Origin: Simplicispira suum
GTDB lineage: Bacteria > Pseudomonadota > Gammaproteobacteria > Burkholderiales > Burkholderiaceae_C
Reading direction: 5' to 3'
Length of the DNA: 64,000 bases
NCBI RefSeq assembly: GCF_003008595.1
Contig: NZ_CP027669.1
Location: 558,001-622,000, forward strand
Position 1 is the first letter of the stretch; the number at the start of each line of letters is the position of its first letter. This document shows positions 7,369 to 62,282 of the stretch, one piece after another. The notes beneath the pieces are model-generated. The model ran no database searches, was not told the DNA's origin, and was given only the letters and a program-made list of their open reading frames with translations. The translations under genes were made by a program, and so were the position numbers.

Positions 7369-10192
7369 ATTCGGGAATTTTTCCAAACGGGTCAAGCGCG
7401 GAGTTCGTCAGCAAATTGGCCGCCGCCTCGCGGTAGGCAAAGGGCAAGAACACGGTACCGTCCGGTGTGCCATCGTCGCGCCGCAACATCAGCTCGACGC
7501 TGCCGCGCCGTGAGGCGATGCGTGCGCGCCCACCGGCCACCAGGCCCAGCCGCGCCATTTCTGCTGCATTCATTGATGCTGTGGCCACCGGCTCGATTGC
7601 ATCCAGTACCTCACTGCGCCGGGTCATGCTGCCGGTGTGCCAGTGCTCAAGCTGGCGCCCGGTGATGAGCACCAGCGGGTAGTCGGCATCGGGCTGCTCG
7701 TCGCCGGGCACCAGGCCGGCAGGCACCAGGCGCACACGCCCGCTGGCGGTGGGGAAGCGCTCCCTGAAAACGATGGGTTGGCCCGGATCCTCCAGGGACA
7801 GACAGGGGTAGGTCACGCTGCCCTCGCACAGCAATCTGTCCCAGGTGATGCCGGCAATCGCGCCATGCATGGCAAGCCGCATTTCCTCGTACACCGCTGC
7901 CACGCCAGATTCATCGCCGGGGTAATGCCAATCGAGCCCCATGCCAGCCGCCATTTGCTGCAGGATCCACAGGTCAGCGCGCGCGTCCCCTGGAGGAGCG
8001 ACGGCCGGCCGGCCGAGCTGCACCATGCGGTCCGTGTTGCTCGCGGTACCGGTTTTTTCCATCCAGCTGCTCGCCGGCAGCACCACGTCGGCCAGCCAGG
8101 CGGTTTCGGTCAGGAAGATGTCCTGCACCACCAGGTGGGAGAGGCTGCCCAGTGCATGGCGCGCGTGGTTCAGGTCCGGGTCGCTCATGGCGGGGTTCTC
8201 ACCCATGATGTACATGCCGCGAATCTTGTGCGGGTCGGCGTCTGGCGCCAAGGCCTTGTGCAGGATTTCGACGACGGTGTAGCCCGGCTCGCCGTCGAGT
8301 GGCTGGCCCCAGAAATTCTCAAACCAGGCCAGTGCCCCCGGATCGTCCACGCGCTGGTAGTTCGGCAGCATCATGGGAATCAGGCCCGCGTCGCTGGCGC
8401 CCTGCACGTTGTTCTGGCCGCGCAGCGGATGCAGGCCCGTGCCGGGGCGGCCGATCTGGCCGGTGATGGCGGCCAGTGCAATCAGGCAGCGCACGTTGTC
8501 GGTGCCGTGCACATGCTGACTGACCCCCATGCCCCACAGAATCATCGCGTTCTTGGCACTGGCGAAGGCCCGCGCCACCTCGCGCAAGAGCGGCGCAGCA
8601 ATGCCGCAGATCGGCGCCATGGCTTCGGGGCTGAACGCGGCGAGGTGCGCACGCAGTTCGTCGAACCCCTCGACCCGCTCGCGGACAAACGCTTCGTTGA
8701 CCAAGCCCTCGTCGATGACCGCGTGCAGCAAGGCGTTGAGCAGCGCCACGTCGCTGTCGGCGCGAAACTGCAGCGTGCGCCAGGCGTGCGCGCCCAGATC
8801 GGTGATGCGCGGGTCGGCCAATACGATTTTTGCGCCGCGTTGGGCGGCGTTCTTCATCCAGGTGGCGGCCACCGGGTGATTCGATGTGGGGTTGGAGCCA
8901 ATGACGAAGATCAGATCCGAAAATTCCACATCGCGCACCGGGTTGCTGACCGCCCCCGAGCCCACGCCTTCAAGCAGCGCGGCCACGCTCGACGCATGGC
9001 ACAACCGCGTGCAGTGGTCGACGTTGTTGCTGCCAAAGCCGATGCGCACCAGCTTCTGGAACAAATAAGCCTCTTCATTGCTGCCCTTGGCCGAACCAAA
9101 GCCGGCCAGTGCCTTGGGGCCGTGGGCGCTCCGAAGCTGCAGCAAACCCCCAGCGGCCAGCGCCAGCGCTTCGTCCCAGGAGGCTTCGCGGAAGGTATCG
9201 CGCCAGTCGGCACCGGGCTCGGGCATGCGCTTGGGAACACCCGGCTTGCGAACGAGCGGCGCGGTGAGCCGATCCGGGTGGTGGATGTAGTCAAAACCAA
9301 AGCGGCCCTTGACGCACAGCCGGCCTTCGTTGGCCGGGCCGTCCCTGCCCTGCACGCCGACGATTTTTTCACCGCGCACCTGCCAGGTGACCAGGCAGCC
9401 GACGCCGCAGAAGGGGCAGACCGAATCGACGCTGCGGTCCATGGCCTGCGAACCTACCAGGGGCTTGGCGCTGAGCGCACCGGTCGGGCAGGCCTGCACG
9501 CACTCGCCGCAACCTACGCAGGTGCTCAGCCCCATGGGATCGTCCAGGTCGAACACCGGCCGGGCGTCGGCGCCGCGCAGCGCCATGCCGATGACGCCGT
9601 TGACCTGGCTTTCGCGGCAGGCGCGCACGCAGCGTCCGCACTGGATGCAGGCGTCGAGCTGCACCGCCATGGCGGGGTGGCTGAGGTCTGGCGCCAGCGG
9701 CGCGCGGCGCAAGGCTGCCAGCGCAGGGCGCACCTGCACTTGCAAGCGCTCGGCCCATTGGCTCAGTTCGCCATGCTGGCCGATAAATTTATGGTCATTT
9801 TGGCCTCCAGCGCTTGTCCCATATGCGTTATAAGCTATTGTTTCAGTAGCATCTTCGTCTTCAGGTTCATCGAGCCATTGGCAACCCGCATCCGGCATGT
9901 CGGCGAGCAGCAGCTCCACCACCATGCGCTGCGCTGCGCGGGCGCGCGGGCTCTGCGCCCGCACCTGCATGCCGGGCGTGGGCGCGCGGCAGCAACTGGG
10001 CGCGAGGGTGCGTTCGCCGTCGATTTCCACCACGCAGGAGCGGCAATTGCCATCGGGCCGCAAGCCTTCCGTGTGGCACAGGTGGGGGATTTCGACGCCG
10101 TGGCGCAGCGCGGCTTGCCACAGGCTCTCACCCGGCCAAGCGCGCAGCGTTTCACCATCAAGCTCGAAGGCAATCAGGTCGGGGGCGTTCAT
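7334..10192 (-). CDS. fdhA: NAD-dependent formate dehydrogenase, catalytic alpha subunit
   Basis: Oxidises formate to CO2 at a bis-MGD molybdenum or tungsten centre and passes electrons to the NAD-reducing beta subunit. The 952-residue protein has an N-terminal [2Fe-2S] domain (Cys39, 50, 53, 67/68), two ferredoxin modules (CIQCGRCVRAC and CVGCGECVQACP), the N-terminal cluster of the molybdopterin domain (CPFCGVGC), and the active-site region HCTRLCHASS with the likely metal ligand Cys398. The ATG at 10192 overlaps the fdhB stop (ATGA). Residues of about 115-133 (ATETIAYN...SAGGQND) are encoded by a copy of the dispersed 55-bp repeat. It is closest in concept to the FDH1/FdsA type. No fdhD or fdsD follows in this window. 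Confidence 0.93.
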   Translation of the reverse strand: MNAPDLIAFELDGETLRAWPGESLWQAALRHGVEIPHLCHTEGLRPDGNCRSCVVEIDGERTLAPSCCRAPTPGMQVRAQSPRARAAQRMVVELLLADMPDAGCQWLDEPEDEDATETIAYNAYGTSAGGQNDHKFIGQHGELSQWAERLQVQVRPALAALRRAPLAPDLSHPAMAVQLDACIQCGRCVRACRESQVNGVIGMALRGADARPVFDLDDPMGLSTCVGCGECVQACPTGALSAKPLVGSQAMDRSVDSVCPFCGVGCLVTWQVRGEKIVGVQGRDGPANEGRLCVKGRFGFDYIHHPDRLTAPLVRKPGVPKRMPEPGADWRDTFREASWDEALALAAGGLLQLRSAHGPKALAGFGSAKGSNEEAYLFQKLVRIGFGSNNVDHCTRLCHASSVAALLEGVGSGAVSNPVRDVEFSDLIFVIGSNPTSNHPVAATWMKNAAQRGAKIVLADPRITDLGAHAWRTLQFRADSDVALLNALLHAVIDEGLVNEAFVRERVEGFDELRAHLAAFSPEAMAPICGIAAPLLREVARAFASAKNAMILWGMGVSQHVHGTDNVRCLIALAAITGQIGRPGTGLHPLRGQNNVQGASDAGLIPMMLPNYQRVDDPGALAWFENFWGQPLDGEPGYTVVEILHKALAPDADPHKIRGMYIMGENPAMSDPDLNHARHALGSLSHLVVQDIFLTETAWLADVVLPASSWMEKTGTASNTDRMVQLGRPAVAPPGDARADLWILQQMAAGMGLDWHYPGDESGVAAVYEEMRLAMHGAIAGITWDRLLCEGSVTYPCLSLEDPGQPIVFRERFPTASGRVRLVPAGLVPGDEQPDADYPLVLITGRQLEHWHTGSMTRRSEVLDAIEPVATASMNAAEMARLGLVAGGRARIASRRGSVELMLRRDDGTPDGTVFLPFAYREAAANLLTNSALDPFGKIPEFKYCAVRVAKA
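9795..9850 (-). repeat. Palindromic 55-bp repeat, copy 1, inside fdhA
   Basis: Contains the core TGGCCTCCAGCGCTTGT on the plus strand and ends with TAAGCTATTGTTTCAGTAGC. Read in the direction of fdhA, it adds about 19 codons without disturbing the frame. Its 3' core is identical over 18 bases to the copy in era. Confidence 0.85.
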
Positions 10193-61247: not shown

Positions 61248-62282
61248 TTATTCATACCCGAAGGACCGCACCCGCGCTTCGTCGTCCGCCCAGCCACTGC
61301 GCACCTTGACCCAGATTTCGATGAACACCTTGGCGTCCATGAGCTTTTCCAGCTCCTGGCGGGTTTCGGTGCCGATGCGCTTCAAGCGTTCGCCCTTGTC
61401 GCCGATCACCATGGCCTTGTGGCTGTCGCGCTCGACGACGATGGTCGCGGCAATGCGCACCAGGCGCTTGTGCTGCTTGCTTTTCTCTTCACTGAACTGG
61501 TCGATCACGACCGTGGACGTATAGGGCAGCTCGTCGCCGGTAAAGCGAAACAGCTTTTCGCGGACCGTCTCGCTGGCAAGGAATTTTTCGCTGCGATCGG
61601 TCAGTTCGTCCTCGCCGTACCACCAGGCCTGCTCGGGCAGGTACTTCGCGCAAATGCCGTACAGCCGCTCGACGTCGCCCTTGTTCTTGGCCGACATCGG
61701 CACGAACTCGGCAAATGGATGGCGCTCCTGCATGCTCTTGAGCCAGGGCGCAATCTCGGCGCGGCGGTGGATGTTGTCGAGCTTGTTGGCAATCAAGAGG
61801 GTCGGGATGCCGGGCTTGAACAGCGAGAGCACCTTGGCGTCGGCCAGGGTAAAGCTGCCGGCCTCGACAACGAACAAGATCAGATCCACGTCACCGATGG
61901 CGCCCATCACCGTTTTGTTGAGCGACTTGTTGAGCGCCGTTGCGTGGCGCGTCTGAAAGCCCGGGGTGTCGACGAAGATGAACTGCGTCCGCTCGCGCGT
62001 ATGGATGCCGGTGATGCGGTGGCGCGTGGTCTGCGCCTTGCGCGACGTGATGCTGATCTTCTGCCCCACCAGGGTGTTGAGCAGCGTGGATTTGCCCACG
62101 TTGGGCTTGCCGACAATGGCAATCACGCCGCAGCGCTGGCCGGCTGCAGCCGCTTCACTCGCCCCACCCGTTTCACCCACCGCCGCAGGTCGGCTGGCCG
62201 CCAGCATGGATTCAAGGTCGTTTTGGCCTCCAGCGCTTATCTCATCGGAAGGAGCCGCTTCGTTGTTTGTAGCATCGGTCAT
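61248..62282 (-). CDS. era: GTPase Era
   Basis: An essential GTPase in 16S rRNA maturation and 30S assembly. The 344 residues have the G1 motif GKPNVGKST (58-66), G3 DTPGFQ, G4 NKLD and a C-terminal KH domain around [24 protein letters not shown]. coli Era is about 301 residues. The extra N-terminal 48 residues include a translated copy of the 55-bp repeat (residues 4-22). I chose the ATG at 62282 because it overlaps the rnc stop (TAATG). A later ATG at 62207 would exclude the repeat. Confidence 0.95.
62218..62273 (-). repeat. Palindromic 55-bp repeat, copy 11, at the era 5' end
   Basis: The plus strand reads CGTTTTGGCCTCCAGCGCTTATC, then a divergent half ending TTTGTAGC. It is translated as [19 protein letters not shown]. 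Its SAGGQND portion is identical to that in fdhA. Confidence 0.82.

Follow-up and report, generated by a model that had tools for sequence, protein, structure and literature searches.

A ~67-bp palindromic repeat of Simplicispira suum and other Comamonadaceae may be an uptake-signal-like DNA motif rather than an inserted element

We analyzed a 64,000-nucleotide window of the Simplicispira suum genome (contig NZ_CP027669.1, positions 558,001 to 622,000), in which a short palindromic repeat occurs in eleven copies. Most of its genic copies replace coding sequence and leave its length nearly or wholly unchanged rather than inserting in frame; the repeat behaves largely as a whole unit, and its sites are mostly old and orthologous, not freshly scattered. 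From these comparisons we tentatively read it as a genome-wide DNA recognition motif, of which an uptake-signal-like tag would be the foremost candidate, and not as an inserted palindromic element. An earlier note on this DNA had described the repeat and likened it to elements that insert into genes in frame; its observation is confirmed and its interpretation partly supported.

The per-position information defines a conserved unit of ~67 bp, from about −17 to +49 relative to a GGCC, rather than the ~55 bp originally proposed: information climbs at −17 and is back to background past about +49. The unit is ordered as an AT-tract, GGCCTC, the palindromic core (C)TAGCGCTT-N7-AAGCGC(TA), AGCTAT, another AT-tract and ATAGC, with the consensus AAATTTnAAGTnAAATT GGCCTC(T/C)AGCGCTT(A) N7 AAGCGC(T/A)A GCAGCTAT nAATTTnATAGC, which contains no T-run. 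The spacer between the core arms measures 7 nt in 33/33 exact-core copies, and the GC content of the window copies lies between 0.34 and 0.52. Among 52 cores, a loop was more like the reverse complement of another loop than shuffled loops were (2.39 versus 1.81, sd 0.09), as inversion of the core loop might produce, but the loop ends extend the stem. No Rfam family reached its gathering threshold in the window.

A covariance model recovered all eleven places listed by the earlier note at 33.4–73.6 bits (E 1.8e-9 to 9.9e-24), the four remaining window matches being these copies again, hit on the opposite strand through their palindromic core. The model was trained on 39 copies, namely 30 exact-core copies from the own genome (two of them in the window) and nine more from the window. 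As all eleven window copies thus belong to the training set, independent support comes from the core count against shuffles, the exact-core count and a separately trained profile. The 14-base core with up to three mismatches matched the window 21 times, against a mean of 8.3 and a maximum of 15 in 100 shuffles, and the exact core GGCCTCTAGCGCTT N7 AAGCGC was found 33 times in the own genome compared to 0 for the reversed pattern. With a profile built from 27 copies outside the tested stretch, 41 positions in the 184 kb of own sequence scored above 0 bits, versus none in the reversed sequence and 0.2 in Markov shuffles, as well as none in 66 kb of congeners with 0–1 genome-wide pattern matches. 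The profile scan, of the kind suggested earlier, returned the motif in excess over both shuffled and reversed sequence.

In the 184 kb of contiguous own sequence, we obtained 31 model matches of at least 21 bits (11 in the window and 20 beyond), corresponding to one per 5.9 kb, practically the density of one per 6 kb first estimated for a very abundant element, and by extrapolation to roughly 660 copies on the 3.9-Mb chromosome. The best 150 of 1884 whole-genome candidates all scored at least 51 bits and all lie on the main contig; because only these were scored, the genome-wide model count is a lower bound. The two minor contigs hold none of the 150 best matches (P 1.5e-4 under a uniform distribution). 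A blastn search with one copy as query, whose sensitivity was not controlled, matched two plasmid records (of 72,556) and no phage record (of 50,697). From IMG/VR, only two stretches fit the strict core pattern, L031:13429-13493 and L032:3283-3361, which are also model matches.

The earlier note mentioned similar repeats in Comamonadaceae, and the motif is indeed present in genomes of this family beyond the own one. A strict pattern was present in 39/299 family genomes and 19/126 genera, with 0 for the reversed control throughout; the matches listed in named genomes (80 loci, at least 119 stretches) include Acidovorax, Paenacidovorax, Extensimonas, Simplicispira, Giesbergeria, Comamonas and Rhodoferax. 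A loose pattern yielded 0–2 matches in one genome each of 16 other families, the same as the reversed control there. Within the genus it yielded strand-counts of 0–214, with 1, 0 and 0 for the congeners G002, G005 and G008 (G000 denotes the own genome, other G numbers the relatives compared).

Genes harbor at least 13 of the 31 sampled copies, six in the orientation of the gene and seven opposite to it. Five of these genes had been named before as fdhA, fdhB, metG, trpF and era, and Pfam bears out all five hosts, with the copies read through. The copy at 9784–9854 (plus strand, 71.4 bits) lies within an FdhA-like gene (7334–10261, minus) and is translated as DATETIAYNAYGTSAGGQNDHKF; that at 11452–11522 (minus, 73.6 bits) lies within an FdhB-like gene (10189–12063, minus) and is translated as VFASNGPLALIPQAQAAIYFVAA. 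In metG (15782–17932, plus), the copy at 17484–17554 (plus, 37.4 bits) occupies the linker before the tRNA-binding domain, an assignment also backed by orthologues. The trpF copy at 50602–50672 (minus, 47.6 bits; gene 50369–51115, plus) covers the segment FVN...QFHGDE, and the era copy at 62207–62277 (plus, 43.1 bits; gene 61248–62393, minus) falls into the N-terminal coding region. A further copy at 26496–26566 (plus, 33.4 bits) stands in the open reading frame (ORF) 26021–27409 upstream of its ScpA domain, which Pfam places from residue 246. Beyond the window, RarA, FabD, RsmB, acyl-CoA dehydrogenase, RsgA and UvrD were named from Protein Data Bank (PDB) matches, and LolA and IleS by reading of the sequence.

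Rickettsia palindromic elements add residues to proteins in frame, and a pure insertion of the present unit would add 23–24 residues. We compared the lengths of 12 genic copies with orthologues in congeners nearly or wholly without the motif, or with solved homologues; UvrD stands outside this comparison, its motif lying beyond the PDB match. Five of the 12 differ by 0–1 residue and ten by at most 11. The TrpF segment comprises 27 residues in each of the 41 genomes in which it could be located (of 44 searched, three were missed by the search expression) and aligns ungapped with the best PDB homologue. In G002 and G005, the RarA segment has 65 versus 64 residues, RsmB 64 versus 64 (G008 is also at most one residue apart), LolA 47 and 46 versus 47, and IleS 64 versus 64; relative to G030, IleS is three residues shorter. 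Alignment with solved homologues left RsmB without gaps across the motif and RarA six residues shorter. In MetG, the excess over G002 and G005 is 9 and 11 residues, respectively, and 10/15 other congeners exceed these two by 3 and 5 residues; the Era N-terminus, counted by eye, has 29 residues versus 27, 24 and 26 in G002, G005 and G008. For FabD (+6), RsgA (+4) and acyl-CoA dehydrogenase (+1 and +5) the references were distant solved homologues only. FdhA and FdhB exceed one distant homologue each by 34 and 20 residues.

The motif shares with the Rickettsia elements that it is palindromic, dispersed and read through in genes. It differs in that most compared genic copies add few or no residues; the proposed likeness as in-frame insertions is therefore not supported for ten of the 12, the FdhA and FdhB copies being compatible with it. 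The imprint on the hosts is seen in their codons, the GC content at third positions (GC3) amounting to 0.28–0.45 in the element versus 0.72–0.89 elsewhere in the seven genes examined; the motif keeps AT-rich codons in GC-rich genes. Carriers agree in their codons to a similar degree within the element and outside it, and the element stands out over other windows only in RsmB (1/380 windows as high). In LolA, the motif covers the signal-peptide region without length change (L145:2953-3023), and in RsgA its right-hand GCTAT...ATAGC arm encodes the C-terminal segment RYSIYSD (L144:9109-9179).

Intergenic copies, on the other hand, add length. The window copy at 59417–59487 (plus, 42.2 bits) fills the gap between pdxJ and acpS, the latter named by reading of the sequence, and extends 17 nt into the 3' end of pdxJ. 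At this junction the genes overlap by 4 nt in G002 and G008, where the site is empty, whereas 15 of 17 carriers show a gap of 54–60 nt and the other two of 67 and 88 nt; no target duplication was established. The copy at 61045–61115 (minus, 54.5 bits) abuts the recO start codon, and the era–recO gap measures 11–12 nt in G002, G005, G006, G008 and G010 and 37–202 nt elsewhere, partly from a second repeat. Another copy, at 42879–42949 (plus, 73.5 bits), has the exact core and ends 1 nt before ORF 42951–44021, and that at 54241–54311 (minus, 66.5 bits) lies 12 nt past the end of ORF 53279–54229, called accD by reading without a family search; both are also found in G007. The copy at 32281–32351 (minus, 50.8 bits) was taken as intergenic, the longest stop-to-stop frame across it having 92 codons.

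The longer pdxJ–acpS junction of the carriers, together with the extra residues of FdhA and FdhB, is what would be expected from an in-frame inserting palindromic element, or from a miniature inverted-repeat (MITE) or repetitive extragenic palindromic (REP) element moved by a transposase such as the REP-associated tyrosine transposase (RAYT). The near-constant length of ten of the 12 compared genic copies contradicts insertion as their general mode, although it could hold for some intergenic copies and for FdhA and FdhB. Moreover, a Y1 transposase gene of ~250 codons occurs in the motif-poor G002, G005 and G008 and was not found in the motif-rich G003, so that we consider this explanation improbable. 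The motif resembles the REP elements and bacterial interspersed mosaic elements (BIME) associated with RAYT (PMC3733652) as a short palindrome in high copy, and differs from them in the many genic copies and in a presence not linked to a Y1 gene. RAYT was rejected as the mobilizer: the single Y1 gene of the own genome has no motif within its 3.3-kb locus, and gene and motif differ in their distribution across the genomes compared. The neighbor of this RAYT-like gene (L033:1468-2172) is an ORF resembling, on reading, an IS110-type transposase; of 23 congeners, 19 had Y1 matches.

The age of the sites was assessed from their conservation. Between G000 and G007, which were compared with a second, nearly palindromic profile trained on G007 copies and matching both strands, 22/22 alignable own sites are common to both, 11 more being not alignable, and 1/23 alignable G007 sites is absent in G000, with a net difference of 21 bp. 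This single polymorphic site of the compared region lies beside acpS (L034:1431-1501 in G007), where G007 is the longer. The pdxJ–acpS copy is present in 17 aligned congeners (the own genome and 16 others) and, by eye, in seven genomes of six other genera, degraded in two more (the acpS start was missed in 5/23). Likewise, the model matched the trpF copy in 12/24 genomes of other genera (E up to 0.01), with a best score of 54.2 bits.

Occupancy of the trpF site follows the genome-wide copy number, that of pdxJ–acpS less tightly. ATAGCT stands at the trpF site in 24/26 genomes with at least five pattern matches versus 2/15 with fewer; two different patterns underlie these counts, which are not independent as the genomes are related, so that a Fisher value is overstated. 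Within the genera g132, g96 and g125, carriers differ from non-carriers at trpF in step with copy number, which is not the case in g82 and g30. Across TrpF, MetG, RarA and RsmB, the motif-poor congeners G002, G005 and G008 retain in-register similarity to the motif (77th–99.7th percentile), whereas distant genomes mostly show none (26th–91st percentile); G302, G280 and G232 lie at the 96th, 82nd and 99.6th percentile. We read the residual similarity in the motif-poor congeners as decay after loss of a trans-acting factor: such a factor would read the motif on DNA, and upon its loss the copies would erode.

That the motif would be recognized as DNA is favored by the absence of a gene-orientation preference, of replication polarity and of regular spacing, and by a stem covariation that is marginal at most. 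On the 150 best matches, two-arc polarity along the chromosome was not seen (44/150, P 0.21) and the spacing was random (coefficient of variation 1.07 versus 0.99, sd 0.08); replication-linked polarity and regular spacing were rejected on this basis. The covariation score was 0.160 versus 0.147 for shuffled alignments (51/500 as high), 24 versus 18.2 stem cells were changed on both sides (23/500 as high), and at the pdxJ–acpS site 108/500 shuffles were as high. A conserved RNA hairpin is not favored by this covariation and the balanced orientation. The same data bear on a family of bidirectional transcription terminators or mRNA-stability hairpins. Such a role is suggested by a related core in Acidovorax ebreus, listed between convergent (44) and co-oriented (59) and rarely between divergent (4) genes (PMC5217627); with at least 13/31 sampled copies inside genes in both orientations, and a consensus without a T-run, we regard it as very improbable here.

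A palindromic DNA-level motif that is chromosomal, maintained and found about once per 6 kb could also be the binding site of a chromosome-organizing or nucleoid protein and be lost along with that protein. We think this rather unlikely, given the lack of an orientation pattern and the random spacing just described. Sites of chromosome-organizing proteins are, in addition, usually much shorter.

The second profile also revealed a gap in the score distribution, with no site between 15 and 20 bits; on reversed sequence it gave 12 positions at 5–10 bits, eight at 10–15 and none above 15. The left AT-tract and GGCC piece alone reached about twice the null at 10–12 bits. Such whole-unit behavior, with no clear excess of parts, would suit a palindromic repeat, selfish or neutral, whose spread through ectopic gene conversion or single-stranded DNA annealing overwrites the targets in register, further conversion keeping the copies alike. 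Replacement with little or no length change would also fit, as would the loops, which by eye vary between several orthologous G000 and G007 copies while the arms are constant. At the replaced trpF positions, however, seven distant genomes show no above-chance similarity (26th–74th percentile; 96th and 82nd in G302 and G280, which come from genera with carriers), and a homology guide is thus not seen; on the absence of such pre-similarity in distant genomes for TrpF, MetG, RarA and RsmB, homology-guided conversion was rejected. That the sites are old and shared, G000 lacking one of the 23 that could be aligned from G007, also speaks against it, and we hold conversion to be unlikely, though less so than the alternatives above.

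The uptake-signal-like tag appears to us the likeliest single mechanism, at a probability somewhat short of even. In naturally transformable Comamonadaceae, the motif would be kept through self DNA that carries it being taken up and recombined in preference, as with the DNA uptake sequences (DUS) of Neisseriaceae and the uptake signal sequences (USS) of Pasteurellaceae. These occur in many conserved copies in the core genome, in and between genes, and are rare in the accessory genome; DUS are often inverted repeats, and many seem born by recombination rather than by point mutation (PMC2397512). The motif likewise stands in many conserved copies in and between core genes, its copy number being high (33 exact cores, with the genome total extrapolated) and its genic copies mostly free of insertion, FdhA and FdhB excepted. 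For this clade, PMC4212676 infers for Verminephrobacter eiseniae a transformation that is sequence-selective and runs through type IV pili, and reports Acidovorax temperans and A. facilis as transformable, naming no uptake signal in that account. More specifically, and with somewhat less confidence, the motif may be the uptake signal of Comamonadaceae, which would then be a group besides Neisseriaceae and Pasteurellaceae to tag its own genome. This signal would be palindromic and ~67 bp long, would have overwritten codons in many core proteins (13 such cases in the 184 kb) and would disappear genome-wide along with its receptor or with competence.

Several observations weigh against an uptake tag. 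Neisseriaceae DUS measure 10–12 nt, unlike this quasi-palindrome of ~67 bp from another family. No clear excess of partial units was found outside known sites, which stepwise point-mutation drive would produce unless new sites are now very rare; on this ground the motif was not classed as a member of the uptake signal sequences. The pdxJ–acpS gap is ~60 nt longer with the motif, and the FdhA and FdhB copies may be true insertions into linkers. Carriers G161, G243 and G147 have no pdxJ–acpS copy, the junction of G161 being overlapping, and G280 and G232 likewise lack it; carriers G115 and G210 gave no model match at trpF. Individual sites thus come and go. Carriers G018 and G052 lack ATAGCT at trpF, while G198 and G169, with 0 strict matches and both from genera holding carriers, keep it. 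Finally, DNA from three further species of Acidovorax failed to transform A. temperans (PMC4212676), and the motif is present in several Acidovorax among the matches listed; low homology could be an alternative cause of this failure.

The earlier note knew of no published name, and a literature search of limited depth brought up neither name nor mechanism for the 67-bp unit. The core itself had been listed, unnamed and unexplained, as the A. ebreus motif GCTTAT(N)5AAGCG with 114 copies, mostly near gene ends and 5/114 in genes (PMC5217627, Table 7). Its arms and spacing fit, and it very probably belongs to the same family; that listing gives the core only, without ends, taxonomic range or length test. 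The spacing of the Polaromonas motif ATAGCT(N)22CAAAAG in the same table does not fit. The betaproteobacterial repeat elements (BRE), first seen in Bordetella, are also dispersed, listed in Comamonadaceae too and partly located in coding sequence (PMC3110155). In Bordetella they are described as 75–91 bp long with a mean of 69% GC, sometimes tandem, and at most 29 copies per genome, in contrast to the far commoner motif with its ~67 bp, lower GC and AT-rich flanks. The window additionally holds a second, GC-rich dispersed repeat (25604–25644, 53184–53229 and 61148–61252), with ~40 bp common within the window and ~95 bp with congeners, which is possibly the published BRE, the two being set together by description only.

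Should the motif prove to be an uptake tag, the sequence-selective transformation inferred for this clade would gain a signal that can be tested. Since it has no sequence relationship to DUS and USS, it would also allow a separate look at whether tags of this kind spread by drive or by selection. Regardless of what it does, a long DNA motif is held in register in conserved proteins of many species, with amino-acid and codon change as the cost, and annotation and protein-evolution work in Comamonadaceae should allow for it.

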